64,000 bases of DNA, taken from the NCBI GenBank assembly GCA_020402865.1, contig JADBYT010000006.1:62001-126000 (forward strand). The letters are read 5' to 3'. This stretch comes from Bacteroidota bacterium. GTDB lineage: Bacteria; Bacteroidota; Bacteroidia; Palsa-965. A program made the translations under genes and the position numbers. This document shows, piece after piece, positions 1,264-54,552 of this stretch. Under the pieces are notes generated by a model that saw nothing but the letters and a program-made list of their open reading frames with translations, searched no databases and was not told where the DNA came from. How positions within the stretch are numbered: position 1 is the stretch's first letter; each line of letters begins with the position of its first letter.

Positions 1264-1728
1264 TGCCGAAAGTTTCAGCAGACAAAGTCAGCAAACAAGC
1301 TGCCAAGCTGCGGAAAGTTTCAGCAGACAAGCTTACAAGCTGCGGAAAGTTTCAGCAGACAAAGTCTGCAAACTTTCCGCCGGGGTTAAACAAGTCTCCA
1401 GACTTGTTTAAAGTGCTAATCACGTAAGAAGGAGCAATTTCTGCTGCATTTCAAACAACCACCTGTCCCGTGTTCCGCTATACTCCCAAGCTGCGGAAAG
1501 TTTCAGCAGACAAAGTCTGCAAACTTTCCGCTATGGTTAAACAAGTCTCCAGACTTGTTTAAAGTGCTAACCACGTAAGAAGGAGCAATTTCTGCCGCAT
1601 TCCAAACAACCACCTGTCACGTGTTCCGCTATACTCCTTCCCCGCATTTATTGCGGGGAGGGTGCCGCTCCACCCGGGGCTAATTAGTTACGTCAGGTTC
1701 ATTAAAACACCACCTGTTCCCCGCCCCC
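1264..1728 (+). repeat. Dispersed repeat cluster A, two hairpin units plus tail block
   Basis: This fills the gap between xth and the glycine-rich gene. Fragments of the unit start at 1264 and 1309. Full units run about 1335-1486 and 1487-1638. Each has hairpin 1 (1342-1380, 1493-1531): outer arms GCGGAAAGTTT/AAACTTTCCGC, then CA, inner arms GCAGAC/GTCTGC, loop AAA. Hairpin 2 follows (1386-1411, 1537-1562): arms TTAAACAAGTCT/AGACTTGTTTAA. A conserved tail of about 75 bases ends CCGCTATACTCC. A separate hairpin (1640-1658, arms CCCCGCA/TGCGGGG) and a GC-rich block (GGTGCCGCTCCACCCGGGGC, about 1660-1680) with its own tail complete the cluster. No gene is seen in it. Confidence 0.9.
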
Positions 1729-1753
1729 CGCATTTGCACCGTTCAAAAAATCA

Positions 1754-2923
1754 CTATTTCTCCAAGGCTTGAAATGCAGCTACCTGAACCTTTCTTATCG
1801 TATAAATTGTTTCAGCGCCAGGCATTCCCTGTTTGCCTTGTACACCGTCTGTGCCATTTTTCCCATTCTGCAGGTGTGCACAGGCATTTGGCAGCGACGA
1901 ATAACCGCTAATCGAACCACCTTTGCCGGCAAAGCCGCCCGTGCCGCCATTACCGCCCTTGTTGTACACGGCTATATTCAACTCACCGCGCGTCACATTC
2001 GTGTCGAGCACAAATTCTACATGTCCGCCATCGCCTCCTTCACCGCCATCGCCTCCGTTTCCGCCATCGGCAGCCGGGCAGCACACGGCAGTGTTGTTTA
2101 CATCGGCAATAAGGCCATCGCCGCCACTCCCTCCGTTAGCGCCACTTCCACCCACACCGCCTGTTACATCAAACACCAGCATGGCTGCCGTATTGCGCAT
2201 AAACAGCTGTTCGGTGTTAGCCGTAATATCTTTTACCAAAATGGCAAGCAAGGGTGTGGGTGCATTTTTAAGCGTCACTTTTTTTATCAATACCTGCAGC
2301 GCATGGCCCGCACCGCCCGGTTTACCGTCTGTACCACTTACGCCATCACGGGCGCATTTTTTACAATCTCCGTTTTCAGGATCCGAGGCATCACGCCCGC
2401 CAAACAAAAGTGTTTTCAGCATGGTTGCATCATTACCCGCATTGCCCGTAGCGTTGATATTTAGCGGTAGCGAAAAATCTATTTTCGTTCTCCACTCGCC
2501 ACTTATTTTGTGCGCTTTTTTGTGTTTTACAATAATTATAAGTTCTCCATTTTCCAGCCCCGATAAATCGTCATTCAGTTTCACCAGATTGGGGGCTAAC
2601 CAGCTGCCTCCTTTCACTTCTGTTTGCAATTCTGAAAACGAAATGCGTTTGCGGCGTTTGTGTGCATCAGTACTTTTCTGATAGTTTTTGCCCTTATATT
2701 CATAAATCACATCAGCTTCAATAGCCGATGTTTGTCCCGGAAACATACTGAACACACTCCCCGGCCGCACGTCAATGCGGATAATGTGTTCGGGCTTACA
2801 AGCACTATGGTAACTCAGTGTTGTTTGCCCCGTGTGCAGCATCCGTGCATATACACACAACTCAGGTTGTGGTCTGCCCCAAAAAAGTGCAAACGGAAGT
2901 ATGATTATGAAAAGTATGCGCAT
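1754..2923 (-). CDS. Secreted glycine-rich collagen-like protein, unknown function
   Basis: A 389-residue protein with an N-terminal hydrophobic signal segment (MRILFIIILPFALFWG). Residues about 30-150 form a non-repetitive domain. From about 170 onward Gly-rich tracts take over (GGDGGEGGDGG, GGNGGTGGFAGKGG, GMPGAE), interrupted by hydrophobic beta-like segments and Cys pairs (CKKC, VCC). No type IX sorting domain is visible. I do not recognise a family; a cell-surface or extracellular structural role is inference from composition. The gene is bracketed by same-direction repeat clusters (1264-1728 and 3113-3407), which makes it a candidate for recombination-mediated loss or duplication. Confidence 0.75.
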   Translation of the reverse strand: MRILFIIILPFALFWGRPQPELCVYARMLHTGQTTLSYHSACKPEHIIRIDVRPGSVFSMFPGQTSAIEADVIYEYKGKNYQKSTDAHKRRKRISFSELQTEVKGGSWLAPNLVKLNDDLSGLENGELIIIVKHKKAHKISGEWRTKIDFSLPLNINATGNAGNDATMLKTLLFGGRDASDPENGDCKKCARDGVSGTDGKPGGAGHALQVLIKKVTLKNAPTPLLAILVKDITANTEQLFMRNTAAMLVFDVTGGVGGSGANGGSGGDGLIADVNNTAVCCPAADGGNGGDGGEGGDGGHVEFVLDTNVTRGELNIAVYNKGGNGGTGGFAGKGGSISGYSSLPNACAHLQNGKNGTDGVQGKQGMPGAETIYTIRKVQVAAFQALEK

Positions 2924-3494
2924 ACGTGTTTATCAAGACCAAAGATCTTCTTTTGGGTTGTTTCTAATATGACCGATTAACATCTTTTTTGCACCACATT
3001 TTTATGTGGAAAGTGGTTAATAGATAATCTGCATAAAATTGGTTACCATAATTGAGCCGCTTATCATACCACGGAATGCTTCGGCTTACAAAATTCATCC
3101 TGCCTAAGTCTAAGCAGACAAAGTCTGCAAACCACGCCCACCCAAGCTTACAAGCTGCGGAAAGTTTCAGCAGACAAAGTCTGCAAACTTTCCGCCGGGG
3201 TTAAACAAGTCTCCAGACTTGTTTAAAGTGCTAACCACGTAAGAAGGAGCAATTTCAGCCGTATTCCAAACAATCACCTGTCCCGTGTTCCGCTATACTC
3301 CTCGGAAACGCTGCAAATACAGCAGTCTGCACCTGCGGGGTGCCGCTCCACCCGGGGCTAATTAGTTACGTCAGGTTCATTAAAACACCACCTGTTCCCC
3401 GCCCCCGCAAAATTTCCCCCCACCCCCAGCGTTATACACAGGCACGATCAAGCCCCTCCGCAAATTCAGCCCGGGCTTTCGTACTTTTAGCGAG
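2924..3494. other. Intergenic region between divergent genes
   Basis: The first 190 bases lie upstream of the minus-strand glycine-rich gene and hold a small hairpin (arms CCACAT/ATGTGG, 2994-3009) but no convincing promoter. Bases 3113-3407 are repeat cluster B. The last 85 bases lead into the barrel gene, with TACTTTTA at 3482-3489 as a possible -7 box. I see no coding frame with protein-like composition. Confidence 0.6.
3113..3407 (+). repeat. Dispersed repeat cluster B
   Basis: A near copy of cluster A in the same orientation. It opens with a fragment (GCAGACAAAGTCTGC, about 3113-3128). Hairpin 1 is at 3157-3195 and hairpin 2 at 3201-3226, with the same arms as in A. The shared tail ends CCGCTATACTCC near 3302. 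A variable spacer then leads to the block GGGGTGCCGCTCCACCCGGG and its downstream sequence to about 3407. Relative to A, the spacer between tail and GC block differs, so the element is modular. Cluster B lies just upstream of the barrel gene. Confidence 0.9.
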
Positions 3495-6400
3495 GTGAAT
3501 CTGCAGCAGGTCTTTCGTTTGCGCCATGTGCTGCTGTTGTGCTTTTTCCTTTCGGGCACAGCGGCCGGGCTGCACGCACAAACCTCCGACAACCTGCGCA
3601 GCCGCACCCTCGCTCCGGCCGATACAATCCGGCTCGACACACTCAGCATCATCCCCGAAACATTTCTCCTTCGCCTCGGTACCGATACTGTGCCCGCTTC
3701 CTGCTACCAGCTCAACGCCGCTGCTGCTTATGTCGTACTGCCGCCCTGCGCACCACGTACCGATAGTTTGCGCATCAGCTACCGCGTGTTTCCGGTGTAC
3801 TTTGCGGCCACCGCCCGCCGCAAGGATCCCGTGCAGCTTACCGCACCACCCGGCCGCAGCATCAACCCGTTTGTATATAAACCCGGCGAACAAAAGCGCG
3901 ATGATATCTTCGCCATGAACGGGCTCAACAAAAGCGGCTCACTGGCACGCGGCATTTCCTTTGGCAACAACCGCGATGTATCGGTAAACTCCAGCCTCAA
4001 CCTCCAGCTCTCCGGCCGCCTTACCGAAAACATCGAACTCACCATGGCGGCTACTGATGATAATCTGCCCATTCAGCCCGATGGGACCACGCAACAGCTG
4101 CAGGAGTTCGACCGGGTGTATATTCAGCTGGCAGGCAAAGGCACGCGCCTCATTGCGGGCGACTTTTTTACCACGCGGCCGGCGGGTTATTTTATGAATT
4201 ACAGCAAGCGCGGGCAGGGTCTTTACGTAACCAGCCGCCAGCGTGTGGGCAATGCCGCCTCGGCCGATTCGCTCAAACAGCCCTTGCTGCTGGTAACCGG
4301 CGGCGCAGCCGTATCAAAAGGAAAATTTGCACGCAACATCGTGCAGGGCATCGAGGGCAATCAGGGCCCCTACCGCCTGCGCGGCGCCGAAAACGAATTG
4401 TTCATCGTGGTACTTTCCGGCACCGAAAAAGTGTTTGTGGACGGGCAGCTGCTTGTGCGCGGACAGGAGAACGATTACATTATCGACTACAATACGTCGG
4501 AAATTACATTCACCGCAAAGCAGCTTATTACCAAAGACAAGCGCATTGTGGTGGAGTTTCAGTACACCGACCGCAACTATGCCCGCTCGCTGCTGCTGGC
4601 CGGGGCCGAATACCGCACCCAGCGCTGGGGTGTGCGGCTGCAGGCGTTTTCGGAACAGGACAGCCGCAATCAGCCCCTGCAGCAAACACTTACTGATGTG
4701 GACAAACTCACGCTCACACAGGTGGGCGATACACTTTTGCAGGCCGTAGTACCCGGGGCCGACAGTGTGGGCTTCAGCAATGATGTGGTGCTTTACCGCC
4801 AAACCGATACGCTGGTAAACGCCGCGCTGTATCCCGATGTGTTTGTGTTTTCAACCGATCCGTCGGTGGCGCACTGGCGGGTTACGTTTTCGTTTGTGGG
4901 CGCGGGGCGCGGTAATTACCGGCAAATCAATGCCTCGGCAAACGGAAAGGTGTTTGAGTGGGTGGCGCCCGTGGGCAATCAGCCGCAGGGCGAATACGAG
5001 CCGGTTATTCTGCTCGTTACACCCAAGCAGCGCCAGCTTGTTACATTCGGCGCCGACCGCCGCACCAAGAAAAATGCGGTGTTCAGCGCCGAGGCGGCTT
5101 ACAGCAACAACGACCTGAATACATTCTCTGCCGCCAACAGTAACGACGATAAAGGCTATGGTTTTTTTCTGCGCGGGGCTGATACCTTGAAGCTGCGCGA
5201 TTCGCTGCGCCTGCTGGCCGATGTGAGCACTGAAGTAGTGAGCCGCTTTTTCACGCCGGTTGAACGCTACCGTGCCGTGGAGTTTGAGCGCGACTGGAAC
5301 CGTGGCTTTCAGAATGCGGGCGGTGCGGGCTGGCAAAATACATCGGGCAGTGCGCTTTCGCTGGCGGCCGCAGCGGGGCAGCAGCTGGCGCAGGGCGGCG
5401 TGCAGTTGCAGCGTTTAGGCTTTGGCACGGCCGGCTACCGGTTTGGTATGTTTCTCGAAGGCAGCAACTACACCGGCTTGCGGCATGCGCTCACTACTAC
5501 GGTGGCACGCGGCGGTTTCAGGCTCAGTGCCGACGGGAGTTTGCTCACCAGCACAGGTGCGGTGGGTGCCACTGAATTTTTGCGCCACAAAGTGGCTGTG
5601 CAACAAATTGTGGCAAAGAAATGGATGATTGCCGCACGCGAACAAACCGAAACTTCGCGTGTACAAAAGCCGCAAAGCGACTCGTTGCAAACCTCCAGTT
5701 TCGGGTATTTCGAGTGGGAGGTGCGCGCCGGTACGGCCGATTCGGCTTTGCGTGCGTTTCAGCTTTTCTACAGCCGCCGCAACGATAATCTGCCCACGCC
5801 GCTTACACTCAAACAAGCGGCCATTGCCGAAAACCGTGGCGGCACATTTTCGCTCAAACAAAATCCGAACCAGCAAATCCGCCTCACACTCAACTGGCGC
5901 ACACTGCGCATTACCGATACCGTGCTGGCTCCGCAGCAGCCCGAAAACACACTACTCGGCCGCTTCGAGTACAATGCGCGGTTCTGGAAAGGTATTGTAA
6001 CCGCGAATACATTCTACGAAGCCGGCTCCGGACTCGAAGTACGCCGCGAGTTTTCGTACCTCGAAGTGCCCGTGGGGCAAGGCACCTACACCTGGACCGA
6101 TTACAACGGCAACGGCGTAAAGGAACTCAACGAATTCGAAATAGCCGTCTTTACCGATCAGGCTTCCTACATCCGCATTTATACGCCCACCAATCAGTTC
6201 ATACGCGTGTACACCAACCAGTTTACACAAAGCATAAACGTGCGTCCTGCCGTGCGCTGGGCCAATGAAAAAAAGTTCAAAGGCTTTCTGGCGCGACTGT
6301 CTGATCAGTTTGTGTATCGTGTGGAACGCAAAACTACCAGCAGTGATGCGGCTGTAGCATTGGTGCCGCGCCTCGACGATGCGAATGATGCCGAGCTTGT

Positions 6401-7052
6401 GTCGCTATCGGCCTCGGTGCGCAACACGGTTTTCTTCAATCAGCTCAGCAGTAAATTCGGTGCCGATTTTTCGGTGCAGGATATCCGCAGTAAAATCCTG
6501 CTCACCAACGGACTCGAATCACGCGGCAACACCTCGCGCGAGTTTCGTGTGCGCTGGAACATTACACGCGCACTGCTGCTCAGTACCGAAATGAAGGAAG
6601 GTGTAAAAACAAACAGCAGCCAGTTTTTCAGCACGCGCAATTTCAGCATCCGCTATTACGAGGTGGCTCCTCAGTTCAGCATTCAGCCCGGCACTACATT
6701 CAGGCTCAGCATTGGTTATCGCTATGCGCAAAAGCAAAATGCGCCGGGCTTAGGCAATGAGAGTTTGTTTCTCAACAAACTCAGCACTGAAGTAAAATAC
6801 AATGTACTTTCAAAAGGCAGCCTTAACGCCGAGCTTGCCTGGATCAGCATGAACTACAACGGCAGCGCCACTTCTGCCGTAGCGTGGGATATGCTTGAGG
6901 CACTTAAGCCGGGGCAGAATTATACCTGGCGTGTAAACTGGCAGCGTGCACTTGCAAACAACCTGCAGCTTACACTCGGCTACGAAGGACGTAAGTCTGA
7001 TGCAACCAAAGCCATACACACCGGCAGCGCACAAATCCGGGCCATGTTCTGA
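3495..7052 (+). CDS. Large predicted outer-membrane beta-barrel protein, unknown function
   Basis: A 1185-residue protein with a clear signal peptide ending ...GTAAGLHAQ. A middle segment (about 145-375) contains NKSGSLARGISFGNNRDVS, a repeated beta-strand pattern, and a module reading GPYRLRGAENELFIVVLSG and then DYIIDYNTSEITF. The remainder is alternating amphipathic strands rich in aromatic and polar residues, ending in ...SAQIRAMF, whose terminal Phe is typical of outer-membrane barrels. The start is a GTG: no ATG in frame precedes the signal peptide. I recognise the general pattern as a conserved Bacteroidota envelope protein but cannot name its function. It is convergent with the glycoside hydrolase, with no spacer between the stop codons. 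Confidence 0.8.
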   Translation: MNLQQVFRLRHVLLLCFFLSGTAAGLHAQTSDNLRSRTLAPADTIRLDTLSIIPETFLLRLGTDTVPASCYQLNAAAAYVVLPPCAPRTDSLRISYRVFPVYFAATARRKDPVQLTAPPGRSINPFVYKPGEQKRDDIFAMNGLNKSGSLARGISFGNNRDVSVNSSLNLQLSGRLTENIELTMAATDDNLPIQPDGTTQQLQEFDRVYIQLAGKGTRLIAGDFFTTRPAGYFMNYSKRGQGLYVTSRQRVGNAASADSLKQPLLLVTGGAAVSKGKFARNIVQGIEGNQGPYRLRGAENELFIVVLSGTEKVFVDGQLLVRGQENDYIIDYNTSEITFTAKQLITKDKRIVVEFQYTDRNYARSLLLAGAEYRTQRWGVRLQAFSEQDSRNQPLQQTLTDVDKLTLTQVGDTLLQAVVPGADSVGFSNDVVLYRQTDTLVNAALYPDVFVFSTDPSVAHWRVTFSFVGAGRGNYRQINASANGKVFEWVAPVGNQPQGEYEPVILLVTPKQRQLVTFGADRRTKKNAVFSAEAAYSNNDLNTFSAANSNDDKGYGFFLRGADTLKLRDSLRLLADVSTEVVSRFFTPVERYRAVEFERDWNRGFQNAGGAGWQNTSGSALSLAAAAGQQLAQGGVQLQRLGFGTAGYRFGMFLEGSNYTGLRHALTTTVARGGFRLSADGSLLTSTGAVGATEFLRHKVAVQQIVAKKWMIAAREQTETSRVQKPQSDSLQTSSFGYFEWEVRAGTADSALRAFQLFYSRRNDNLPTPLTLKQAAIAENRGGTFSLKQNPNQQIRLTLNWRTLRITDTVLAPQQPENTLLGRFEYNARFWKGIVTANTFYEAGSGLEVRREFSYLEVPVGQGTYTWTDYNGNGVKELNEFEIAVFTDQASYIRIYTPTNQFIRVYTNQFTQSINVRPAVRWANEKKFKGFLARLSDQFVYRVERKTTSSDAAVALVPRLDDANDAELVSLSASVRNTVFFNQLSSKFGADFSVQDIRSKILLTNGLESRGNTSREFRVRWNITRALLLSTEMKEGVKTNSSQFFSTRNFSIRYYEVAPQFSIQPGTTFRLSIGYRYAQKQNAPGLGNESLFLNKLSTEVKYNVLSKGSLNAELAWISMNYNGSATSAVAWDMLEALKPGQNYTWRVNWQRALANNLQLTLGYEGRKSDATKAIHTGSAQIRAMF

Positions 7053-8990
7053 TTATTTGCCGTTTACCACAAACGATTGTGGCCGCGAATTACCGTATTC
7101 CTCCCTCACAAAATAAATTCCGGGCGCAAAATCATTAACCCGCACAACCGTCTGATTTCCCTGAACGGGTATCATTTTTATCACTTTCCCGTTTATGTTT
7201 GTGATGATGTAAGTAGTATTAACCGGTGCAAGATCATTTCTGCGGATGTAGAGTATATCACTTGCCGGATTGGGAAAAAGCTGAAAGGCAGATTCAGAAA
7301 CCGACTCATTCCGTATTGATGTAATACCCGGAATATGAACCCTCAGATAAGCTGTGGCATTGGGGCGCAGCGGAAATGAAAAGACGGAATCTGTAATTGT
7401 AACTGTGGTTGAGGTGAAATTGTTTCGGAACGGATAGAGATAAGCCGTAGCCGTTTGTCGTGTATATCCTGCATTAATTAAGGAATCATACACAGGTATT
7501 ACATTGTTTTGAATTGAGTCAACAATTATTAATTCTCCGCTGTGCTGCCCTGTAATTCCGGTAAGTTGTAATGTAACTGTGCGTCCGTTTCGGAATACGG
7601 AATCGGAATACTGGTAGTAGGGAATTAACTGATTAATTGCCGTGGTTAACGGTGTGGTGGCCGGAAGCTGAATAAGTCCGCGATAAATGGAATCGAGCAG
7701 GGTTTCGGATGCCAGCCCTTCATTGATAAGATCGTTTGTGTTGAAGTTCATTGTGTAGAGCAGGCGGGCTGTGGCTTCCGAAACAGGCGGCAGCTGATAA
7801 GCGGCAACCACAACCTGAAGCGTGTCCTGATGTGATGATGCGGCTGCCAGCAGATTTGTACTGTCTGAATAGTTGACCGGAATTCTTGCCCCTTGCAGCC
7901 TGTTCAGCAGTTGCATTGATTTCCAGGCAGGCTTGTGCAAGCTGGCCCAGCTTACCACACCGTAGTCGTTGTGAAATTCGGTTGCGGAAGAATCAAAATC
8001 CTGCCAGGCTGCTACCGACTGTGCGCTTGCGCCGTATGCTTGCAGGAGTATGGTGTAATACGACATATACCCGCTGCTGTATTCCGTATCGCGCAGCGGT
8101 GTGGCAAGGTTCCATTCCGATACCATGAGCGGCACAAGCCCGTGCCCCGAACTGATTAATTTCTGCCGGAGAAACGTCATTTCCTGCGGAATGGCGTGTG
8201 CAACCACATCAAACTTATGCCAGGAGATAAAATCGAGCGGCGTGCCCCAGCTCACACAACTGTCGATAAGATTGGCAATAATGGTTTGATTGAGTTGAGT
8301 CTGACTCAGCGTACCAAGCGGAGGAATGGAGCCGAAAATTGAGGTAAACTGCGAAACTGCAGGCCCTCCTACACGCACGTTCGGGTGCGCTGTTTTTATG
8401 GCTGTATAGCTGCGGTGAAAGAATTCGAAATATTGCTGCGGAGTGCCTTGCCAGTAGAAATTATCAGGCTCATTCCAGATTTCGTAGTCAATATCAAGCC
8501 CCCATTGTACACTCATTTTCTGCACCACACTGTCGAGCAGTTCAGCCCAAACGGTATAATTGGCCGGAGGATGACCGTGATGCACATTCCACGACGGATC
8601 ACCGGCACCGGGAATGGGAGCAGTATTGCTTGAGGAACTTAACCACAGCGGCATTTTCAGAATGGGCATTATTATTTTGTGGCAATGCTGGCTCAGCGTA
8701 ATTGTTCCCGGCCTCATGGCTTCAAGCACGGTCATGGCATCGGCAACAGAATTTACGCCAGCCCAGTTTATTGCCGTTTCTATATTGTATATCCTTACTG
8801 CATCGTAATGAATGCCGCTGTTGTAAAAATCCATTCCGCCGGCATTGGTCTTTGGCGAATAATTTACGCTGGCAGTGTAGCAAACAGGCACATTTCCCGC
8901 CACCTGAAAAGGATTGATACGTAGCTGTTGCGCATTGGCACTTTGAATTGCGGCAACAATAGTAAAAATGAACAGGAGTAGTTTTTTCAT
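7053..8990 (-). CDS. Secreted glycoside hydrolase, GH39-like, type IX sorted
   Basis: A 645-residue protein from the ATG at 8990 (MKKLLLFIFTIVAAIQSANA signal peptide); a longer open frame upstream lacks any signal and is unlikely to be translated. A TIM-barrel domain resembling beta-xylosidase/iduronidase family 39 carries YEIWNEPDNFYW (E174, presumed acid/base) and MVSEWNLATP (E292, presumed nucleophile). The C-terminal 80 residues form a type IX sorting domain (FQLFPNPASDILYI ... GIYFVREEYG). It should act on a glycan outside the cell or at the surface; the substrate is unknown. It follows the sensor kinase by 16 bases on the same strand, so co-transcription is likely. Confidence 0.85.
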   Translation of the reverse strand: MKKLLLFIFTIVAAIQSANAQQLRINPFQVAGNVPVCYTASVNYSPKTNAGGMDFYNSGIHYDAVRIYNIETAINWAGVNSVADAMTVLEAMRPGTITLSQHCHKIIMPILKMPLWLSSSSNTAPIPGAGDPSWNVHHGHPPANYTVWAELLDSVVQKMSVQWGLDIDYEIWNEPDNFYWQGTPQQYFEFFHRSYTAIKTAHPNVRVGGPAVSQFTSIFGSIPPLGTLSQTQLNQTIIANLIDSCVSWGTPLDFISWHKFDVVAHAIPQEMTFLRQKLISSGHGLVPLMVSEWNLATPLRDTEYSSGYMSYYTILLQAYGASAQSVAAWQDFDSSATEFHNDYGVVSWASLHKPAWKSMQLLNRLQGARIPVNYSDSTNLLAAASSHQDTLQVVVAAYQLPPVSEATARLLYTMNFNTNDLINEGLASETLLDSIYRGLIQLPATTPLTTAINQLIPYYQYSDSVFRNGRTVTLQLTGITGQHSGELIIVDSIQNNVIPVYDSLINAGYTRQTATAYLYPFRNNFTSTTVTITDSVFSFPLRPNATAYLRVHIPGITSIRNESVSESAFQLFPNPASDILYIRRNDLAPVNTTYIITNINGKVIKMIPVQGNQTVVRVNDFAPGIYFVREEYGNSRPQSFVVNGK

Positions 8991-44002: not shown

Positions 44003-44087
44003 TATTTATGTCGTAAAGCATGAAAAACTCCATAGTTTTTACGACCTTTCCTGTACAGAATTGAACCGGAATTTAACACACACGATT

Positions 44088-44753
44088 ATGAAAAAAGTTT
44101 TTGTACTAGCAGTGGTGCTGCTTGCTGCCGTTGTGGCACATGCCCAGAAAATAAACGTTAAAGAATCGAACGAAAACATTGGCGGAGGTTCGCACAATGC
44201 GCTGGTGGTAACCATTTACGATGCCAAACCGGATGATATTGAGAAGGAATGGAAATCGAAAATGAAAGGCTACGATGCGAAGGTGAGTTCGAAAAAGGAA
44301 ATTTTTGCCGATAATGCGCTCATCAAGGAAATGGGCGGGAATGACCCGATGGATATTTATGCGCGGGTAGAAAAAGTAAGTGATACTGAATCGAAACTCA
44401 TTGTGGGTTTTGATCTGGGCGGTGCCTGGCTGAACTCAAAAGAGCATAGCGATAAATATAAAGTGGCCGAGAAAATTGTACGCGACTTTGCCCTGCAAAT
44501 GACGAAGGAAGCGGTAGCCGGCATTCGCAAAGCTGCGCAGAAAAAAGTGGACAACCTCAAAGACCAGCAGGCCGATCTGGAGAAGAAAAACAAAGACCTG
44601 AAAAACGATATTGAAACCTATAAAGAAAAAATCAAAAAGGCCGAAGACGATATAAAAACCAACGAAAGCGATCAGGCAAAGAAAAAAGCGGAGGTAGATG
44701 CTGCACAAAAAGCACTCGACGAAATTCTTGCCCGCGAAGCAAAGATCGATTAA
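44088..44753 (+). CDS. Exported protein with C-terminal coiled coil
   Basis: A 221-residue protein from the ATG at 44088 (MKKVFVLAVVLLAAVVAHAQ signal peptide). Residues about 20-135 form a compact alpha/beta domain (NIGGGSHNALVVTIYDAK ... ARVEKVSDTESKLIVGFDL). A long highly charged coiled coil (about 140-215, Lys/Asp/Glu/Gln-rich) makes up the rest. It is probably periplasmic. I do not know a function; the pattern is frequent in Bacteroidota. A terminator shared with the convergent S74 gene follows. Confidence 0.78.
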   Translation: MKKVFVLAVVLLAAVVAHAQKINVKESNENIGGGSHNALVVTIYDAKPDDIEKEWKSKMKGYDAKVSSKKEIFADNALIKEMGGNDPMDIYARVEKVSDTESKLIVGFDLGGAWLNSKEHSDKYKVAEKIVRDFALQMTKEAVAGIRKAAQKKVDNLKDQQADLEKKNKDLKNDIETYKEKIKKAEDDIKTNESDQAKKKAEVDAAQKALDEILAREAKID

Positions 44754-44816: not shown

Positions 44817-46835
44817 TTACTCGGTTACAATCATACGCTTGCTGTCGGCTGCTTTGCCGTCAACAATAAGTGTGTAGATATACATGCCCGGAGCAAGTTC
44901 GTTTGCGTTGATTACAAACTGACCGGCACCGCGCTGGTTGATCTGCTCAGCGCGGATCTGACGGCCGTTGAGATCGTAAATGATCATGCTGGCTACACCT
45001 GCGTTCTGCGCCACGTTGAAGTTGATTACCGTTTGCTGGTTGAACGGATTGGGTACGTTCTGCTGCAATGAACCAAGTGAAGGATTTACTTCAAGCGGAG
45101 CCTGCACACCGTCGTTGGTAATGGTGTTGCCTTTCATAGCGGCAATCTCTGCTTTGAGTGCATCAATCTGAGCCTGCTGCTGCGAAATTTTGTCTTCCTG
45201 TGTTACAATCTGCTGCTGTTGTACTTTCATACCTTCTACAAGCAGCGGAGTAATGGCACCGTAGTTTACAGCGTAAACACCGTCATCACCCACAGCTACC
45301 ACTTCAGGTACAACCTGAGCAAGTTCCTGTGCAATAAATCCGATTTGCGCTACACCCGGAGTGCCTTCTTGGTTGCCCGGCGAGTTGAATACATAGCTGG
45401 TACCGCGCATTTTCATAATACGCTCCATCGGATTTTCGATGGTCTGGATAGATGATTTGTAGCGCTGATCGGAGAAAGCAAAGTAGCCTTCAGCACGCAC
45501 GCCACCCTGTACATCAAGATAAAAATCAAGTGTGCCGCCAGGTGAAGGCGACACGTTAAAGGTTCCTGCATTTACCGGAGCCGCGGTGTTAATACCTACA
45601 CGGCCGTTGGCCAGAATAGTCATCACCTCACGCTTGGTGGTAGAGTTATTAGCATTAACGTTGTTACGGAAGTTGAAGGTAAGACGATCCTGTGAAGCGC
45701 CTGCTGTTGATACATTGCTGCTGAACTGTAAATCCTGCCAGGTAATTTCGGCGGTATTGCCGTTTACCTGCGCATTGAATCCGGCATCGCCATTTTGAGC
45801 GCGAAGCCCCACAATATCATTGGTAGCAAGTGTTGTATTACCCTCTTGTCCGATAGAAGCGAACTTAACGGTTGCCGGATTTATAAAACTTCCGTCGGTA
45901 ACAACAGTAATGGCGCGGAATACCGAAGGCAGCGTATTTGAAATGGCTGTGGGTGAAGCATCAACCAAAAAAGCCACGGTACCGGGATCTCCATTTATAC
46001 CTGCAAAACCATTGGCGTTAAACACCATCAGATCTTTATTCACAGGCGCTGTTGCACCGTTAGTGCGGATATTTCTGATGCGCATGCGCTGGTTAGCATC
46101 GGGTGTGGCGCCTTCGCCTCCAAATCCGATAACAAGGTCTTCTGTACCCAAAAATACCGGGCTGTTTACCAGATTGAAATAACCCGCCGAAGCACCCCGC
46201 GACATAGCCATACCAAATACCGAAGAAATCGGTACTGCCTGTGTACCGGCAATGCCTAAACCAATCCATTCATTACCGTTTGCAAAGTTGCCGAAAGTTC
46301 CTGTCTGCAACTGCGAAATCTGTCCGCCGAATACCTGAAATACTGCCGACGGAGCTGTAGTACGAACGCCCACAAAGCGGTCGCCGGTAGCAGTAAAGAT
46401 ATTGCTTGATGCAGCTTCGGTACCCGCCTGAATGCGGAAAAAAGTACCTGCAACACCTGCATTGCCAATTACGTTAATATTACTTCCATTATATAAATTT
46501 GCCTGATCTGTGCGGCAATTAAATTCCGTACGACTACCATTTACATAGAGGCGGGCAAATAAACCACCGCCGTCCTGCACACGGATACCACCACGTACAT
46601 CAAGCGGATCAAGCGCAGGATTAGGTAGTCCGACTGTAACACCGGTAGATGTTAAACGCATGCGCTCAATACCTCCGCGCTGCATAATTACATCAAAATT
46701 GGTAGTAGATCCGAAAATTCCATTTGCTGCCAGCGGATTTCCACCCACAAGCCATTGCGCTTTCATCTCAGAATAACTGAGCAATAATAACGCACCAAGT
46801 ACCGCCGTAGCAGCAATTCGTTTGTTTGTTTTCAT
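44817..46835 (-). CDS. Type IX secreted protein with peptidase S74 domain (paralogue 1)
   Basis: A 672-residue protein. A signal peptide (ending YSEMKAQ) precedes a long beta-rich tail-fibre-like body (about 30-450). An S74-type intramolecular chaperone domain begins at FSDQRYKSSI (Ser455) and continues GTPGVAQIGFIAQELAQVVP. A 25-residue coiled coil (about 544-568) of three heptads ending in Ile follows, then a type IX sorting domain (NVPNPFNQQTVINFNV ... GMYIYTLIVDGKAADSKRMI). In phage tailspikes, S74 follows the fibre and cuts itself off; here the sorting domain lies beyond it. It is one of three tandem paralogues. Probably a trimeric surface or extracellular fibre; the ligand is unknown. 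Confidence 0.85.
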   Translation of the reverse strand: MKTNKRIAATAVLGALLLLSYSEMKAQWLVGGNPLAANGIFGSTTNFDVIMQRGGIERMRLTSTGVTVGLPNPALDPLDVRGGIRVQDGGGLFARLYVNGSRTEFNCRTDQANLYNGSNINVIGNAGVAGTFFRIQAGTEAASSNIFTATGDRFVGVRTTAPSAVFQVFGGQISQLQTGTFGNFANGNEWIGLGIAGTQAVPISSVFGMAMSRGASAGYFNLVNSPVFLGTEDLVIGFGGEGATPDANQRMRIRNIRTNGATAPVNKDLMVFNANGFAGINGDPGTVAFLVDASPTAISNTLPSVFRAITVVTDGSFINPATVKFASIGQEGNTTLATNDIVGLRAQNGDAGFNAQVNGNTAEITWQDLQFSSNVSTAGASQDRLTFNFRNNVNANNSTTKREVMTILANGRVGINTAAPVNAGTFNVSPSPGGTLDFYLDVQGGVRAEGYFAFSDQRYKSSIQTIENPMERIMKMRGTSYVFNSPGNQEGTPGVAQIGFIAQELAQVVPEVVAVGDDGVYAVNYGAITPLLVEGMKVQQQQIVTQEDKISQQQAQIDALKAEIAAMKGNTITNDGVQAPLEVNPSLGSLQQNVPNPFNQQTVINFNVAQNAGVASMIIYDLNGRQIRAEQINQRGAGQFVINANELAPGMYIYTLIVDGKAADSKRMIVTE

Positions 46836-46887
46836 AAGTAATAGATTTTGGTGTTATACCCGAACCATAGTTTATGATCAGGTGGAG

Positions 46888-46919
46888 CCAAAGTAAACTA
46901 AGTAAATACCAATTACAAA
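46888..46919 (-). promoter_or_regulatory. Promoter of S74 paralogue 1
   Basis: On the minus strand, TTTG (46916-46919) and TACTTTGG (46888-46895) are separated by 20 bases. The -7 box deviates from TAnnTTTG at one position. The start codon is 52 bases downstream. Confidence 0.5.
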
Positions 46920-47070
46920 TGTTTGTAAATATTTTAATCTTTTGTAAAACGAACAAATACATATAAAACAAAACCAAAGCAGTTTTGTTTCTGCGGGCAA
47001 CCGAAGCTTATCAACAGATTTAGCTTTCGACTAATTGAATGGTTAAACATTTTTAATCCCGGCAAAAAAA

Positions 47071-47094
47071 CAGCCCGGAAAGACTTCCGGGCTG
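47071..47094 (-). terminator. Terminator of S74 paralogue 2
   Basis: Ten-base-pair stem (CAGCCCGGAA with TTCCGGGCTG), 4-base loop, followed on the minus strand by seven T. It lies 34 bases after the stop codon. Confidence 0.88.
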
Positions 47095-47127
47095 TAAAAT
47101 CAGGGCAATAAATGTTGTACAATATAA

Positions 47128-49110
47128 TTATTCGGTTACAATCATACGCTTGCTGTCGGCTGCTTTGCCATCAACGATAAGTGTGTAGATGTACATGCCC
47201 GGAGCAAGTTCATTTGCATTAATTACAAACTGACCGGCACCGCGCTGGTTAAGTTGTTCGGCACGGATCTGACGGCCGTTGAGATCATAAATGATCATGC
47301 TGGCCACACCGGCATTCTGCGCCACATTGAAATTGATTACGGTTTGCTGGTTGAACGGATTGGGTACGTTCTGCTGGAGCGAGCCAAGCGCAGGATTCAC
47401 TTCAAGCGGAGCCTGCACACCATCGTTGGTAATGGTGCTGCCTTTCATAGCGGCAATCTCTGCTTTGAGTGCGTTAATCTCAGCTTGCTGTGTGGTAATT
47501 TGCTGCTGCTGTACTTTCATGCCTTCCACCAGAAGCGGTGTAATGGCGCCATAGTTCACCGCGTAAATTCCATCATCGCCTTTGGCCACTGCTTCAGGCA
47601 CTACAAGCTCAAGTTCCTGAGCAATGAAACCAATTTGCTGTACACCGGGCGTACCTTCTTCAGCGCCGGGAGCATTGAATATATAACTGGCACCACGCAT
47701 CTTCATGATACGTTCCATCGGGTTTTCAATGGTTTTGATATCGCTTTTGAAACGTTGGTCGGAAAATGCAAAGTAACCCTGAGCACGCACACCACCGTTT
47801 ACATCGAGGAAGAAGTTGAACATACCAGCCGGTGAAGGTGCAACGTTGAAAGTACCCATAGCAACAGGTGCGGCAGTATTAATACCCACACGGCCATTGG
47901 CCAGAATGGTCATTACTTCCTTTTTGTTGGCGGCATTGTTGGCCGGCTGATTATTACGGAAGTTAAACGTAATACGATCCTGCGCCGCTGTTGCGGTAGA
48001 AACGGCTCCTGCAAAATTCAGATCCTGCCAGGTAATTTCGGCCACGCTGGCATTTACCTGACAATTCAAACCTGCATTACCATTCTGTGCACGTAAACCG
48101 GTAATATCGGTACCCGGTATAATGGTACTGTTTCCTTCCTGACCGATGGAAGAAAAAGTAGCCGCGGCCGGAACGGCAAAACTGCCGTTGGTAAGCACGG
48201 TTATCGCCCGGAAAGCTGCGGGAGAAGGAACAACAGCGGGTGTGGCATCTACCAGAAATGCAATTACACCCGGATCGTTGTTAATGCCTACGTAACCGGC
48301 TGCGTTGAATACCATCAGGTCTTTGTTTACCGGTGCAGCCATTCCGTTGGTGCGGATGTTTCGGATACGCAAACGCTGGGCCGCATCAGCCGCAGCACCG
48401 TCGTTACCGTAACCGATCACCAGATCCTTGGTGGCGCCGTTATCTACAATATTGTAATACCCGGCAAAACCGTTGTCGGCCATGCCCAGACCATAAACAG
48501 ACGGAATCGGCATTGCCGGTGATCCGGCCTGCCCGAGCGCGAGCCATTCATTACCGGCAGCAAAATTACCGAATGTCCCGAACTGAAGCTGCGATACCTG
48601 TCCGCCGATTACCTGAAACTTGGCCGAAGGCTGACCACCAATGCCCACGAAATTGAGCGTACCGTCGCAAAGCAGCAGATCAGGCCCTACACCACCGGGC
48701 TGAACACGGAAGTTGCGCACACCGCCCAACAGACCGGGACGCATTACCATCGACCCGAAATCAGAGCCAATCACAAAATCATTTATGGCAATAATCTGCT
48801 GAAAGGCATTCGACTCGATACGCAGGTGACGGCCGGGGAAACCATTGCTGGAAACCCGGAACGTATTTCCTACTTCAAGCTGAGCTACCGGGGCGGCAAC
48901 AAGGCCTACGCCCACATTGCCCGCCGCCAGAATCCGGACGCGGTCAACACCATTGGAAATAAAACGAACATCGGCATTGTTCGTAGAACCAAAAACGTCG
49001 GCAGCACCGACAACGTTACCGGCCGTCAGCCAGTTCTGAGCACTGAGCCCGGCCGTACTCAGTGTACCGGCCAGCAACAATGCTGTTTTTAATAGTGTGT
49101 GTGTATTCAT
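47128..49110 (-). CDS. Type IX secreted protein with peptidase S74 domain (paralogue 2)
   Basis: A 660-residue paralogue of the gene at 44817, with the same order: signal peptide (LSTAGLSAQ), beta-rich body, S74 domain starting at FSDQRFKSDI (Ser450), coiled coil, type IX sorting domain. The coiled coil is the shortest of the three, 18 residues (two heptads plus four). Residues about 60-150 differ strongly from the other paralogues, whereas the last 200 are nearly the same, which suggests recent duplication or gene conversion with exchange of the distal head. It has its own terminator, and no clear promoter was found. Confidence 0.85.
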   Translation of the reverse strand: MNTHTLLKTALLLAGTLSTAGLSAQNWLTAGNVVGAADVFGSTNNADVRFISNGVDRVRILAAGNVGVGLVAAPVAQLEVGNTFRVSSNGFPGRHLRIESNAFQQIIAINDFVIGSDFGSMVMRPGLLGGVRNFRVQPGGVGPDLLLCDGTLNFVGIGGQPSAKFQVIGGQVSQLQFGTFGNFAAGNEWLALGQAGSPAMPIPSVYGLGMADNGFAGYYNIVDNGATKDLVIGYGNDGAAADAAQRLRIRNIRTNGMAAPVNKDLMVFNAAGYVGINNDPGVIAFLVDATPAVVPSPAAFRAITVLTNGSFAVPAAATFSSIGQEGNSTIIPGTDITGLRAQNGNAGLNCQVNASVAEITWQDLNFAGAVSTATAAQDRITFNFRNNQPANNAANKKEVMTILANGRVGINTAAPVAMGTFNVAPSPAGMFNFFLDVNGGVRAQGYFAFSDQRFKSDIKTIENPMERIMKMRGASYIFNAPGAEEGTPGVQQIGFIAQELELVVPEAVAKGDDGIYAVNYGAITPLLVEGMKVQQQQITTQQAEINALKAEIAAMKGSTITNDGVQAPLEVNPALGSLQQNVPNPFNQQTVINFNVAQNAGVASMIIYDLNGRQIRAEQLNQRGAGQFVINANELAPGMYIYTLIVDGKAADSKRMIVTE

Positions 49111-49330
49111 AGGTATTGGTTTTAATGAATTTTATTACTGCTTTTTGCAGCTTATAAGGGAAGTTAAAACGGTTAAACTGAGAAGGCAAGCCGACTTTTT
49201 CTACTTAACTAATTATAAGTGCTTGTTTCGACTTATTGCCTTTCCTGTTCTCAAATCTGCATTTTACGAACAGCCTTTCAAATAAATGATTTTAACGTTT
49301 ACATAATATGTTTGAATTGATTCAATAAAA

Positions 49331-49358
49331 AAGCGCCGGACAAATCTATCCGGCGCTT
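49331..49358 (-). terminator. Terminator of S74 paralogue 3
   Basis: Ten-base-pair stem (AAGCGCCGGA with TCCGGCGCTT), 8-base loop, flanked by A and T runs; on the minus strand the T run follows the stem. It lies 18 bases after the stop codon. Confidence 0.85.
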
Positions 49359-49376
49359 TTAATATTTTAATACTAA

Positions 49377-51416
49377 TTATTCCGTCACAATCATACGCTT
49401 GCTGTCGGCCGCTTTGCCGTCAACAATAAGCGTGTAGATGTACATGCCCGGAGCAAGTTCGTTTGCGTTGATTACAAACTGACCGGCACCACGCTGGTTG
49501 AGTTGCTCAGCACGGATCTGGCGGCCGTTGAGATCGTAAATAATCAGGCTGGCCACACCGGCGTTCTGCACCACGTTGAAGTTGATTACCGTTTGCTGGT
49601 TGAACGGATTGGGCACGTTCTGCTGCAATGAGCCAAGCGCAGGATTCACTTCAAGCGGAGCCTGCACGCCGTCGTTTGTAACGGTGTTGCCTTTAAGTGC
49701 AGCTACTTCGGCAAGCAGCGTATTAATCTGAGCCTGCTGGGTGGTAATCTGGTTCTGCTGCTCGGTAATTTTCTGCTCCTGTGTTACAATCTGCTGCTGC
49801 TGCACTTTCATGCCTTCAACCAGAAGCGGAGTAATTGCACCATAGTTTACCGCGTAAATACCATCGTCGCCTTTGGCTACTGCTTCGGGTACTACCTGCT
49901 CAAGCTCTTGTGCAATAAAACCAATTTGCTGCACACCGGGCGTACCTTCTTCAGCACCAGGTGCGTTGAAGATGTAGCTTGTGCCGCGCATTTTCATGAT
50001 TCGATCCATCGGGTTTTCGATGGTTTTGATATCGGTTTTGAAGCGCTGATCGGAAAATGCAAAGTAGCCTTGTGCACGCACACCGCCGTTTACATCAAGA
50101 AAGAAGTTGAATGTACCCGCCGGCGAAGGAGCTACGTTGAATGTACCTGTAGCAACCGGTGTAGCGGTGTTGATTCCTACACGGCCGGTAGCCAGTATGG
50201 TCATTACTTCTTTTTTGTTGGTCGCATTATTGGCCGACTGATTGTTGCGGAAGTTAAACGTAATGCGGTCCTGCGCTGTTGTTGCTGTGGAAACGGCCCC
50301 GGCAAAATTCAGATCCTGCCAGGTAATTTCGGCCACGCTGGCATTTACCTGACAATTCAGGCCGGCATTACCGTTTTGTGCGCGCAAACCGGTAATATCT
50401 GTACCCGGTGTGATGGTGCTGTTTCCTTCCTGACCAATTGAAGAAAAAGTAGCCGCAGCAGGCGATGCGAAGCTGCCGTTTGTAAGTACCGTAATTGCTC
50501 TGAATGCATTCGTGGCAGGAACAGTTGCAGCGGTGGCATCAACCAGAAATGCAATGGTTCCCGGATCGGCATTTACACCCACGTAGCCGGCGCTGTTAAA
50601 CACCATCAGGTCTTTATTTGCAGGTGCGCCCGCACCATTTGTTCGAATACTGCGGATGCGCATACGCTGATTGGCATCTAATGCAGTTCCTTCGTTGCCG
50701 TAACCGATAATCAGGTCTTTGGTAGTACCATTATCTACAAGATTGTAATAACCGGCAAAACCGCCGCGCGAAAGACCAAGGCCATAAACCGTATTAATCG
50801 GAGCAGCAGCAGAACCAGCCAAACCTAAACCAATCCATTCGTTACCGGTTGCAAATGTGCCGAATGTTCCGGTTTGCACCTGCGAGATTTGGCCACCGAA
50901 AACCTGAAATTTAGCGGTTGGATTGGTAATTCCTATACCCATGAAACCGTTACTCAATACAGTAGTCAAAGGATTTGTGGCTGATCCCGAACAGATGTTG
51001 TAGGAATTAGATGTGCCAAAAATATTATTAAAATTATTTATGGTACTAATCTCCATTATAAATGAGGTCTCTATCTGACTCACATATGGAAAAGTTGCCA
51101 ATGAAGAAGTCAGGCGAAGAGTTGCTAGTTGTCCGATTCCTACTGTACCATTAACATGTAGCGGTTGTGTTGGCGTTCCTAACCCAAGTCCTATGCCAAC
51201 ATTACCTGTGGAAGAAATTTTCATCCTGTCAGCACCATTAGTCTGGAAAATAAGATCAAATCCATTTGTTGAACCTAATCGCTGTGTTGGTGAAGGCGCA
51301 AATCCCGTTAACGCATTCCCGCTCAACGACCAATCTTGTCCGTTCACCTCAGCCGCGAGCAACAGCATGCCTCCCATTGCCAATGAGGCAATTTTTGTTT
51401 GTGTTTTCTTTTCCAT
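49377..51416 (-). CDS. Type IX secreted protein with peptidase S74 domain (paralogue 3)
   Basis: A 679-residue paralogue from the ATG at 51416 (MEKKTQTKIASLAMGGMLLL signal peptide); an eight-codon upstream extension is unlikely. Same domain order as paralogues 1 and 2, with S74 Ser at about 455 (FSDQRFKTDI). Its coiled coil is the longest, 32 residues (four heptads plus four). Residues about 65-165 (NVGIGLGLGTPTQPLHVNG and following) are unlike those of its neighbours. The middle (about 170-450) is close to paralogue 2. It has a good promoter 50 bases upstream. Surface or extracellular fibre with variable head is the favoured inference. Confidence 0.85.
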   Translation of the reverse strand: MEKKTQTKIASLAMGGMLLLAAEVNGQDWSLSGNALTGFAPSPTQRLGSTNGFDLIFQTNGADRMKISSTGNVGIGLGLGTPTQPLHVNGTVGIGQLATLRLTSSLATFPYVSQIETSFIMEISTINNFNNIFGTSNSYNICSGSATNPLTTVLSNGFMGIGITNPTAKFQVFGGQISQVQTGTFGTFATGNEWIGLGLAGSAAAPINTVYGLGLSRGGFAGYYNLVDNGTTKDLIIGYGNEGTALDANQRMRIRSIRTNGAGAPANKDLMVFNSAGYVGVNADPGTIAFLVDATAATVPATNAFRAITVLTNGSFASPAAATFSSIGQEGNSTITPGTDITGLRAQNGNAGLNCQVNASVAEITWQDLNFAGAVSTATTAQDRITFNFRNNQSANNATNKKEVMTILATGRVGINTATPVATGTFNVAPSPAGTFNFFLDVNGGVRAQGYFAFSDQRFKTDIKTIENPMDRIMKMRGTSYIFNAPGAEEGTPGVQQIGFIAQELEQVVPEAVAKGDDGIYAVNYGAITPLLVEGMKVQQQQIVTQEQKITEQQNQITTQQAQINTLLAEVAALKGNTVTNDGVQAPLEVNPALGSLQQNVPNPFNQQTVINFNVVQNAGVASLIIYDLNGRQIRAEQLNQRGAGQFVINANELAPGMYIYTLIVDGKAADSKRMIVTE

Positions 51417-51465
51417 GAGTTTGATGTTTATTTGACACATTCAACCATTGAATGCGCACGAAAAA

Positions 51466-51847: not shown

Positions 51848-54283
51848 TTAATTCGATATGGTTAAACGCTGACGCGATACTTTGCCATCCATGAGAAGTT
51901 CTACGATGTAGATGCCTTTCTCAAGACCGGCAAGCTGTACATCCTGCAGGTAGTTACCGGCGGCAAGCGAACCAAGGTCAATTTGCTGTACGGTGCGGCC
52001 GCTCATGTCGGTGAGGGTAATCATACCCTGCTGTACGGGCGACTCAAGCGAGTAGGCAATCTGTACATTGTTCTGCGCCGGGTTGGGGAACATTACCATG
52101 TTTGATACCGCATCCGTTTCGGTGATACCGGTGGTAAGCTGCAGCGGAATGAGGCTGTCGCCCGAAGCAAGTGCTACCCAGAGGCCAAAACCAGGACCGT
52201 TGCTGTTGTTTGACGGGTTAAGGAAGCCCGAAGCAAGTACGGTAATTGCTTGTCCCTGAAGGTTGCGCTGTGCAAGATCAGCAAAGTAAGAAGCCACTAC
52301 GGTGTTGCCGGTAGCATCAGTTACACTGATGTTGTAGTTTGAAGTAGGCAGTGAAAGGTAACCCGCAAAGTTGGTGTAAGCTGCATCATTTACAAGTGTA
52401 GCACCGGTAAAGGCTTCTTCTACATCCACTGTGGGCGCATCAGTTGAACCATGAAACACCAGTACATCGGTGTTGGCCACGTTGGTAGCCTCTTCACGGG
52501 CACCGCTGAATACTTCAATAGTAAAGTTAGGAGCCGGGTTGTAGCCGGTGGGGCTTACAATACCGCTGGCCACCAGAATATATTTGGTACCCGCGTTTAA
52601 AGTATAAGTGAAACGGGCAACTTCATTGGTTGTATCGGTGCTGTTGGGTCCGCAAATGGTTACATCAAACGGCGTTCCGGCGGGAAGATCTACAAAACCG
52701 GTGGCGGTGCGGAACGCAAAGTTGGTTACCGCAGGAGTATTGTTTACCCATACATCAACCAAGGCCGCTGCTGCGTCGGCACAATTGTGAATTACTTGTG
52801 CGCGGGTTGTACTCACAGCCACAGAAGGCAATTGCTGGAGCGGACCGCCCGAAGGCAATGCTACCCAAAGACCGAATGCAGGACCATTGTTGTTCGCCTG
52901 TGTATCAAGAAAACCCGAAGCTACTACAGTAATTGACTGACCAGCCAGACTGAGTGTTTGAAGCGGAGCAGAATACTCAGCTACTACATCGGCACCAGAA
53001 GCTGTACGCACCTGCAGGTTGTAGTTGGCAGTGGGCAGTTCGAGGTAACCACCAGAAGCATATTCGCTGTACGAAATATCATCAACAAGTGTGGCAACAA
53101 GCGGAGCCACTACATCTACAGTAGGAGCATCGGTTGCACCATGATATACGAGCACATCCGTATTAGACGGGTTTGAAGCTACTTCGCGGCTTTGGCTAAA
53201 GATTTCGAGAGAGAATGCAGGTGCAGGATTATAGTTTGCAGCTACCACAATACCACTGGCAATAATGGTGTTTTTGCTGTTTGCAGGAACACCACCGGGA
53301 TAGCTGAAACGAACCACTTCAGCTGTAGTATCTGTGCTGTTCGGCCCGCAAATGGTAATGTCGAACGTTACGCCAGCAGGTACGTCCACCCAGGCGGTGG
53401 CTTCGCGGAAGCTCAGGTTGTTGGCATACAAGGTATCGTTGAGCCAGATGTCAACCGTTGCTGCTGCTGCATCGGCGCAGTTATGAATGATTTGTGCACG
53501 GGCAGTGGAAATGGGAGCCGAAGGCAATTGAATCATGGGGCCGGTGGTATCAGGAGCTACCCAGATACCAAACGCCGGACCATTGCTGTTGGCCGCCGGA
53601 TTGAGGAAACCTGAAGCTACAGCTACCAGCGCAGCACCGTTCAGATTAAGTGTTTGGAGCGGAGCCAAATACTCAGCCACCACGTCGGTGCCGGCAGCGG
53701 TACGCACCTGGAGGCGGTAGTCGGCCGTGGGCAATTCGAGGTAGTTGCTGAACTGCGGATACGATACGTCATTAAGCAACGTAACATTGGTGTAAGGCGT
53801 ACCTACACCGGGAGCCACAATATCAACAGTGGGTGCATCGGTTGAACCGTGCAGCACAAGGATATCAGTATTAGCCGGATTAGAGGCCGTTTCGCGGCCG
53901 AGTGTATAAAGATCAAGGTTAAATGCCGGAGCTGGCGAGTAGCCCGAAGGACTTACAATACCGTTAGCTACTGCCACATAGGTTTCACCAGAAGTAAGTT
54001 GAAGACCAGAGAAGCGACGCACTTCATTGATAGTGTCAGTACTGTTTTTACCACAAATGGTAATGTCAAAAGGCACTCCGGCGGGTGCATTGTTGAATCC
54101 CCAAACAGTTCGGAATGCAAAGTTGTCAATAAGCAATGTATTGTTCAACCAAACATCCACTGTGTCGGCCGCTGCATCGGCACTATTGTGAATAACCTGC
54201 AGACGGGCAGTTTGTGCATTAAGGCCTAAATACCCCAGCAATAGTCCCCCCGCGAGTGTGAAAAATCGTTTTGTTCTATTCAT
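51848..54283 (-). CDS. DUF4397 repeat protein with type IX sorting domain
   Basis: An 811-residue protein from the ATG at 54283 (MNRTKRFFTLAGGLLLGYLG signal peptide). Three repeats of about 230 residues follow. Each holds two DUF4397-like halves: the first with IHN(S/C)ADAAA..VDVWLN and FDITICGPNSTDT, the second with NTDVLVYHGATDAPTVDVVA and a YLELPTANYNLQVR-type segment. The C-terminal 80 residues are a type IX sorting domain (MVMFPNPAQNNVQIAYSL ... KGIYIVELLMDGK). It is probably a surface adhesin-like or structural protein; the DUF has no known function. It stands as its own transcription unit. Confidence 0.87.
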   Translation of the reverse strand: MNRTKRFFTLAGGLLLGYLGLNAQTARLQVIHNSADAAADTVDVWLNNTLLIDNFAFRTVWGFNNAPAGVPFDITICGKNSTDTINEVRRFSGLQLTSGETYVAVANGIVSPSGYSPAPAFNLDLYTLGRETASNPANTDILVLHGSTDAPTVDIVAPGVGTPYTNVTLLNDVSYPQFSNYLELPTADYRLQVRTAAGTDVVAEYLAPLQTLNLNGAALVAVASGFLNPAANSNGPAFGIWVAPDTTGPMIQLPSAPISTARAQIIHNCADAAAATVDIWLNDTLYANNLSFREATAWVDVPAGVTFDITICGPNSTDTTAEVVRFSYPGGVPANSKNTIIASGIVVAANYNPAPAFSLEIFSQSREVASNPSNTDVLVYHGATDAPTVDVVAPLVATLVDDISYSEYASGGYLELPTANYNLQVRTASGADVVAEYSAPLQTLSLAGQSITVVASGFLDTQANNNGPAFGLWVALPSGGPLQQLPSVAVSTTRAQVIHNCADAAAALVDVWVNNTPAVTNFAFRTATGFVDLPAGTPFDVTICGPNSTDTTNEVARFTYTLNAGTKYILVASGIVSPTGYNPAPNFTIEVFSGAREEATNVANTDVLVFHGSTDAPTVDVEEAFTGATLVNDAAYTNFAGYLSLPTSNYNISVTDATGNTVVASYFADLAQRNLQGQAITVLASGFLNPSNNSNGPGFGLWVALASGDSLIPLQLTTGITETDAVSNMVMFPNPAQNNVQIAYSLESPVQQGMITLTDMSGRTVQQIDLGSLAAGNYLQDVQLAGLEKGIYIVELLMDGKVSRQRLTISN

Positions 54284-54552
54284 GATTTCTAGTTTTGAAA
54301 AGTTCAGCCTGTGGTTGCAACACAGCAACAAAACCAGAATAGGGTTTTAATGTTCAGTGCACTCATCAAACTTTAATGTGCATTAAAACCTGTTTAATAA
54401 ATTGCACCTGCACGTCCTGACCAGTTACCGGTAATTTACCTGCCGGTTATCATCCGATAAATACCAATTGCCGGAAAAGACCGAAAACAGGCACAAACCG
54501 TGCTCCGGCGAAATTTTCTTACCTTTAACCCTTCTGAATTCGTTTGTTACGT

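Follow-up and report, generated by a model that had tools for sequence, protein, structure and literature searches.

Tandem secreted proteins of a Bacteroidota bacterium with a predicted self-processing S74 domain ahead of a type IX sorting domain

In phage intramolecular chaperones (K1F endosialidase, T5 pb1, S16-type gp37), an upstream fibre is followed by an S74, or ICA, domain with a Ser–Lys dyad and a coiled coil; the S74 domain is the C-terminus, folding is cytoplasmic, and there is neither a signal peptide nor a secretion-sorting domain. MyRF, a eukaryotic transcription factor that is not secreted, carries an internal S74/ICA domain with a coiled coil and a transmembrane-helix anchor behind it. 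The domain releases the N-terminal trimer from the C-terminal anchor, and S587A and K592A each abolish cleavage (PMC8326128). The mosaic adhesive trimeric (MAT) fibres of Bdellovibrio include an S74 subfamily in which S782A abolishes the self-cleavage of Bd3182 (PMC10769870). Cargo of the type IX secretion system (T9SS) is exported by Sec, is proposed to fold in the periplasm, and passes SprA in dependence on its C-terminal type IX sorting domain (CTD); PorU then removes the CTD, and the cargo is attached to anionic lipopolysaccharide (A-LPS) or released (PMC10202324). Here we describe three tandem paralogous genes in which an S74 domain precedes a CTD. They are on the minus strand of a stretch of DNA from the Bacteroidota bacterium GCA_020402865.1 (contig JADBYT010000006.1, positions 62,001–126,000 of the forward strand); coordinates are those of this 64,000-nucleotide stretch, called the window.

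The genes occupy 44817–46835, 47128–49110 and 49377–51416, and all three products have the same domain order: Sec signal, passenger of about 420 residues, S74/ICA domain, helix and CTD. An earlier note on this DNA had proposed, for 44817–51416, three tandem secreted proteins with S74 ahead of the type IX signal; the coordinates are right, and both profiles score above their cut-offs in all three proteins. The order of an S74 domain, a helix and the sorting domain also holds in three other S74 genes of the genome, and is thus found in all six (6/6; one runs off the contig end, with the CTD still detected). The parts of the three genes are as follows.

44817–46835, minus strand: gene 1, 672 residues; signal peptide, passenger, S74, coil and T9SS CTD
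45225–45473, minus strand: gene 1 S74/ICA core, residues 455–537; predicted scissile bond N-terminal to Ser455 (codon 45471–45473); Lys460 (45456–45458)
45126–45242, minus strand: gene 1 helix, predicted coiled coil behind S74; helix at model residues 141–184
44820–45068, minus strand: gene 1 T9SS type A sorting domain (CTD), residues 590–672; PF18962 and TIGR04183; fold match to the PorU, PorZ and mirolase CTDs
47128–49110, minus strand: gene 2, 660 residues, architecture as in gene 1
47515–47763, minus strand: gene 2 S74 core; Ser450 (codon 47761–47763) and Lys455
47437–47532, minus strand: gene 2 coil, 14 residues shorter than that of gene 3
47131–47379, minus strand: gene 2 T9SS CTD, profile match
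49377–51416, minus strand: gene 3, architecture as in gene 1; 679 residues from the Met at 51416, 687 from 51440
49806–50054, minus strand: gene 3 S74 core; Ser455 (codon 50052–50054) and Lys460
49686–49823, minus strand: gene 3 coil, the longest in the trio
49380–49628, minus strand: gene 3 T9SS CTD, profile match

The Pfam profile Peptidase_S74 (PF13884) matches the trio with E values of 5.8e-13, 1.2e-13 and 1e-15 (49.4, 51.5 and 58.1 bits against a curated cut-off of 22). The dyad motif is SDQRYK in gene 1 and SDQRFK in genes 2 and 3, with Ser455/450/455 as the predicted nucleophile and Lys five residues further on. An AlphaFold2 model of gene 1 residues 385–672, based on 92 aligned sequences, has a mean pLDDT (per-residue model confidence) of 83.8, exceeding 90 for most of the S74 core and the entire CTD. 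Foldseek ranked many unrelated beta-sandwiches for this partial model, and only the MyRF and T9SS-CTD rows were used. Model residues 62–175 resemble the MyRF ICA crystal structure 7dc3 (Z 8.9, root-mean-square deviation (rmsd) 2.4 over 114 residues), the nearest solved S74 fold found; in the sequence alignment S455 falls on MyRF position 587 (Ala in the 7dc3 chain) and K460 on MyRF K592. There is no Pfam match in the trio to a MyRF-type DNA-binding domain before the ICA domain or to a transmembrane helix after it; a CTD stands there instead.

Por_Secre_tail (Pfam PF18962) is found behind S74 in the trio (E values 5.6e-8, 2.7e-8 and 1e-7, above the curated cut-off), and the NCBIfam T9SS type A sorting domain (TIGR04183) at the extreme C-terminus (E about 1e-8, about 35 bits against a cut-off of 23). 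Model residues 200–288 match the PorU CTD 6za2 (Z 10.1, rmsd 2.2 over 87 residues), the mirolase CTD 8qb1 (Z 8.8) and the PorZ CTD (Z 8.7). The host genome encodes full-length PorU (1353 bits) and SprA (2656 bits).

The fusion is not confined to this genome. S74 was found in 113 of the 392 sampled genomes of the phylum. Ninety-two bacterial S74 proteins were classed, 40 with a CTD behind S74 and 52 without, a proportion that is not a frequency, since a fusion query supplied part of the sample. The fusion-bearing genomes include Candidatus Symbiothrix, Saprospiraceae, Bacteroidaceae, Paludibacteraceae and Chitinophagales. Among 80 distinct viral S74 proteins, by comparison, 79 end 3–19 residues past the S74-coil match and one after 55; none of the 80 has a CTD behind S74. 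On a tree of the S74 domain (97 columns only), the CTD label changes 17 times against a shuffled mean of 33.6, and at least three changes are forced by well-supported branches. By this comparison of sequences the tail has been gained or lost repeatedly, gain and loss not being distinguishable on the tree. A one-off fusion was rejected, as the fusion recurs in several Bacteroidota families and the label changes repeatedly. An explanation of the tail by the presence or absence of the T9SS is not supported either: every one of the 47 tested genomes with S74 carries SprA, whether its S74 protein has the tail or lacks it. Many Bacteroidota S74 proteins (L009, L010, L035, L161 and others) have a signal peptide and no CTD, and the tested genomes carry SprA. 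Locus L081 has two tandem proteins of about 1000 residues (1325–4246 and 4818–7832, plus strand) with a CTD and a weak S74 match about 265 residues from the C-terminus, a spacing that exceeds that of the other members.

In the CTD-tailed class, Ser is kept in 39 of 40 proteins and Lys likewise in 39 of 40, with a mild bias toward intact motifs because the detection profile includes the dyad motif; members with altered motifs were still detected (L070, L078 and the Ala/Ala protein of L053). Both residues are kept in 98 per cent of the tail-less bacterial and 100 per cent of the viral S74 proteins. Of the other columns of the tailed class, Gly499, a residue of the fold, is as conserved as the dyad; the motif Asp (90%), Gln503 (87%) and the motif Arg (60%) are less so. 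Because each dyad residue is kept in 39 of 40 tailed proteins and the fold is MyRF-like, S74 self-processing is probably active in them. The Arg at position −14 from Ser, a feature of K1F and T5 but not of the whole family, was uninformative: the trio has Asp there, yet Arg is found in just 1 per cent of 77 viral members (counted without gaps). In genome G377, a tail-less S74 protein (L053, 1781–2833, plus strand) has both Ser and Lys replaced by Ala (ADKRFA). It adjoins an intact S74 paralogue (L053, 709–1812) and, within this tandem array, may be a naturally cleavage-dead chaperone.

The earlier note had described the S74 motif as followed by a coiled coil and the type IX sorting domain. Of the two, only the CTD is unusual when compared with phages; a coil normally belongs to the S74/ICA domain, as in T5 pb1, whose C-terminal end is a triple coiled coil (PMC4690869), and in MyRF, where the coil of the ICA domain drives trimerisation (PMC8326128). 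Between members of the trio, the spacing of Ser and CTD varies by exactly 7 and 14 residues, and the gene 3 coil has Ile every 7 residues. Such whole-heptad differences would be expected for a coiled coil held in register.

Signal peptides were scored by a simple rule. They were found in 47 of 55 complete bacterial S74 proteins (26 of 32 CTD-tailed and 21 of 23 tail-less) and in none of 30 viral ones, and on this contrast the surveyed bacterial proteins are classed from their sequences as cellular exported proteins. Gene 2 has a visible hydrophobic N-terminal signal but failed the rule. In gene 3, position 51416 is the second Met of the open reading frame that starts at 51440 and is the better signal-peptide start. 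The passengers match only their own paralogues (49–57% identity). A search of 38 related genomes, six of them from the same genus, gave no match at E 1e-8, and phages gave none either. Protein identity in the trio rises from about 30 per cent in the N-terminal 160 residues to 96–99 per cent in the CTD. Where the residue is conserved, identical codons likewise become more frequent toward the CTD, from 41–48 to 74–82 per cent. This pattern points to recombination or gene conversion, which would homogenize the C-terminal cassette while the N-terminus diverges. When the window trio was compared with L001, L002 and L004, two other copies in the same genome were found to share 79 per cent in the N-terminus and 54 per cent in the middle, which suggests recombination.

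Our preferred reading, to which we give a probability of about 0.5, is that the trio encodes trimeric fibres exported by the T9SS, and that S74 cuts the fibre loose from the CTD, or from an anchor stub, during or after translocation. Cellular proteins of phage-tail-fibre type would be exported by Sec and then by the T9SS. Through its coiled coil, the S74 domain would join three chains and aid the folding of the upstream fibre; the Ser–Lys dyad would cut immediately before Ser, giving a fibre subunit of about 47 kDa and an S74–coil–CTD piece of about 24 kDa. With the cut made during or after translocation, the fibre would be freed from the CTD or from an anchored S74–coil stub. Computation shows the order of the domains, their fold, the conserved dyad, the signal peptide and the T9SS genes of the genome; the trimer, the cleavage and its timing, and whatever the fibre would bind, are inferred. 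The late cut appears the most likely because the CTD is needed to recruit cargo to the T9SS. It is also favoured by the intact dyad of the CTD-tailed proteins and by C. elegans MYRF, in which the region following the ICA domain can restrain cleavage and so delay it (preprint PMC12803276). The earlier note had posed a dilemma, in which a cut removes either the export signal or the anchor; the architecture that creates it is real and recurs in Bacteroidota. Were folding and cleavage to come first, S74 and T9SS biology would conflict, as the fibre would be left without its export tag. In a more specific account, which we advance tentatively, self-cleavage would be a built-in release switch of the T9SS: the CTD would export the full-length chain, trimerization would occur outside, and the cut would free the mature fibre while the S74–coil stub stayed with PorU or lipopolysaccharide. 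If so, cleavage would report the compartment in which T9SS cargo folds.

Several points weigh against the preferred reading. T9SS cargo is proposed to fold before it leaves the periplasm (PMC10202324), and this would favour an early cut. Conservation of a Ser–Lys pair can serve folding as well as catalysis. The full-length AlphaFold model (pLDDT 32 from 3 sequences) gave no usable passenger fold, only GNVGIG-type motifs were seen where an upstream trimeric beta fibre would be expected, and the gradient from a variable N-terminus to a conserved CTD also fits a fibre that stays anchored at its C-terminus. Proposed pre-export folding of T9SS effectors is one ground for an alternative that we consider less likely, in which the S74 cut would come early, upon folding of the trimer in the periplasm; held noncovalently by the S74 trimer, the fibre would be either carried out or left in the envelope, and the CTD would export mainly the S74–coil piece. 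In phages, S74 cleavage does follow correct trimer folding (T5 pb1, PMC4690869), and tail-less S74 proteins with signal peptides in T9SS-positive genomes imply that not every S74 fibre requires a CTD. With an early cut, however, the CTD would be largely useless for the fibre, yet the tailed proteins keep the dyad; moreover, the cleaved T5 chaperone must let go of its fibre (PMC4690869), and the restraint on MYRF cleavage cited above shows that the cut can be held back.

Somewhat less likely again is the absence of any S74 cut, with the domain acting as a trimerizing clamp and chaperone only, the fibre attached to the surface by its C-terminus after PorU has removed the CTD, and the variable N-terminus as its distal tip. 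The identity gradient fits this account, being the reverse of that described for the Bdellovibrio MATs, where a conserved domain follows the signal peptide, as does the natural existence of an Ala/Ala S74 domain, in a tail-less protein. However, few columns of the tailed proteins are as conserved as Ser and Lys, which rank above the motif Arg, Asp and Gln, and Ser-to-Ala blocks cleavage in the MAT, MyRF and T5 proteins, so that the conserved dyad is catalytic there. Prophage tail-fibre genes or their remnants are a very improbable explanation, which was rejected. S74 and GNVGIG-type motifs occur in phage fibres too, but the trio has signal peptides and CTDs, neither of which occurs in the viral set, its passengers have no phage match, and no phage gene is present among the neighbours examined (a DUF4397–CTD protein and a DUF502 protein).

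Among described systems, the closest in biology are the Bdellovibrio MAT fibres and the closest in layout is MyRF. The MATs, compared by description, are like the trio a multigene family of cellular, signal-peptide-bearing fibre proteins with S74 (PMC10769870); unlike the trio, they have S74 at the very end, no T9SS CTD, and their conserved domain, beta-rich and of about 130 residues, at the N-terminus after the signal peptide. T9SS type A cargo (TIGR04183/PF18962) shares with the trio a Sec signal and a CTD sandwich, and PorU and SprA are encoded in the host genome; ordinary cargo loses its CTD to PorU only, whereas a second, self-made upstream cut is predicted for the trio. The earlier suggestion of an unusual folding-and-release mechanism is partly supported. 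Release by an internal S74 was already known from MyRF, and self-cleavage of S74 fibres in a cellular bacterium from the MATs, so the mechanism would be a new combination and not a new principle. We found no paper that combines S74 (or the chaperone of endosialidase) with the T9SS, and looser searches gave T9SS papers that did not deal with S74, in a partial coverage of the literature that is not proof of absence. The S74–CTD proteins point to a widespread and apparently undescribed class of secreted fibres in Bacteroidota. They join two well-studied modules, a phage folding protease and a type IX export signal, whose arrangement leaves two courses, an early cut that loses the tag or folding delayed until outside. 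Because the fusion recurs, the order in which folding, cutting and export take place can be tested. Proteins of the trio type could act as natural sensors of where T9SS cargo folds, because the phage and MyRF S74 domains cut only once trimerized.

The gaps between the three genes measure 266 and 292 bp and contain terminator-like hairpins (consensus matches only), on which grounds the genes are probably separate transcription units.

47070–47095, minus strand: terminator-like hairpin directly 3' of gene 2, 11 pairs and a T run
49329–49360, strand unassigned: near-palindromic terminator-like hairpin between genes 3 and 2

Adjoining the trio, 44061–44753 (plus strand) encodes a small protein whose start resembles a signal peptide and whose C-terminal part is a long region of coiled-coil type; its family matches are weak only. 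The secreted product of the neighbouring gene at 51848–54331 (minus strand) matches DUF4397 six times and carries a T9SS CTD clearly unlike those of the trio in sequence.

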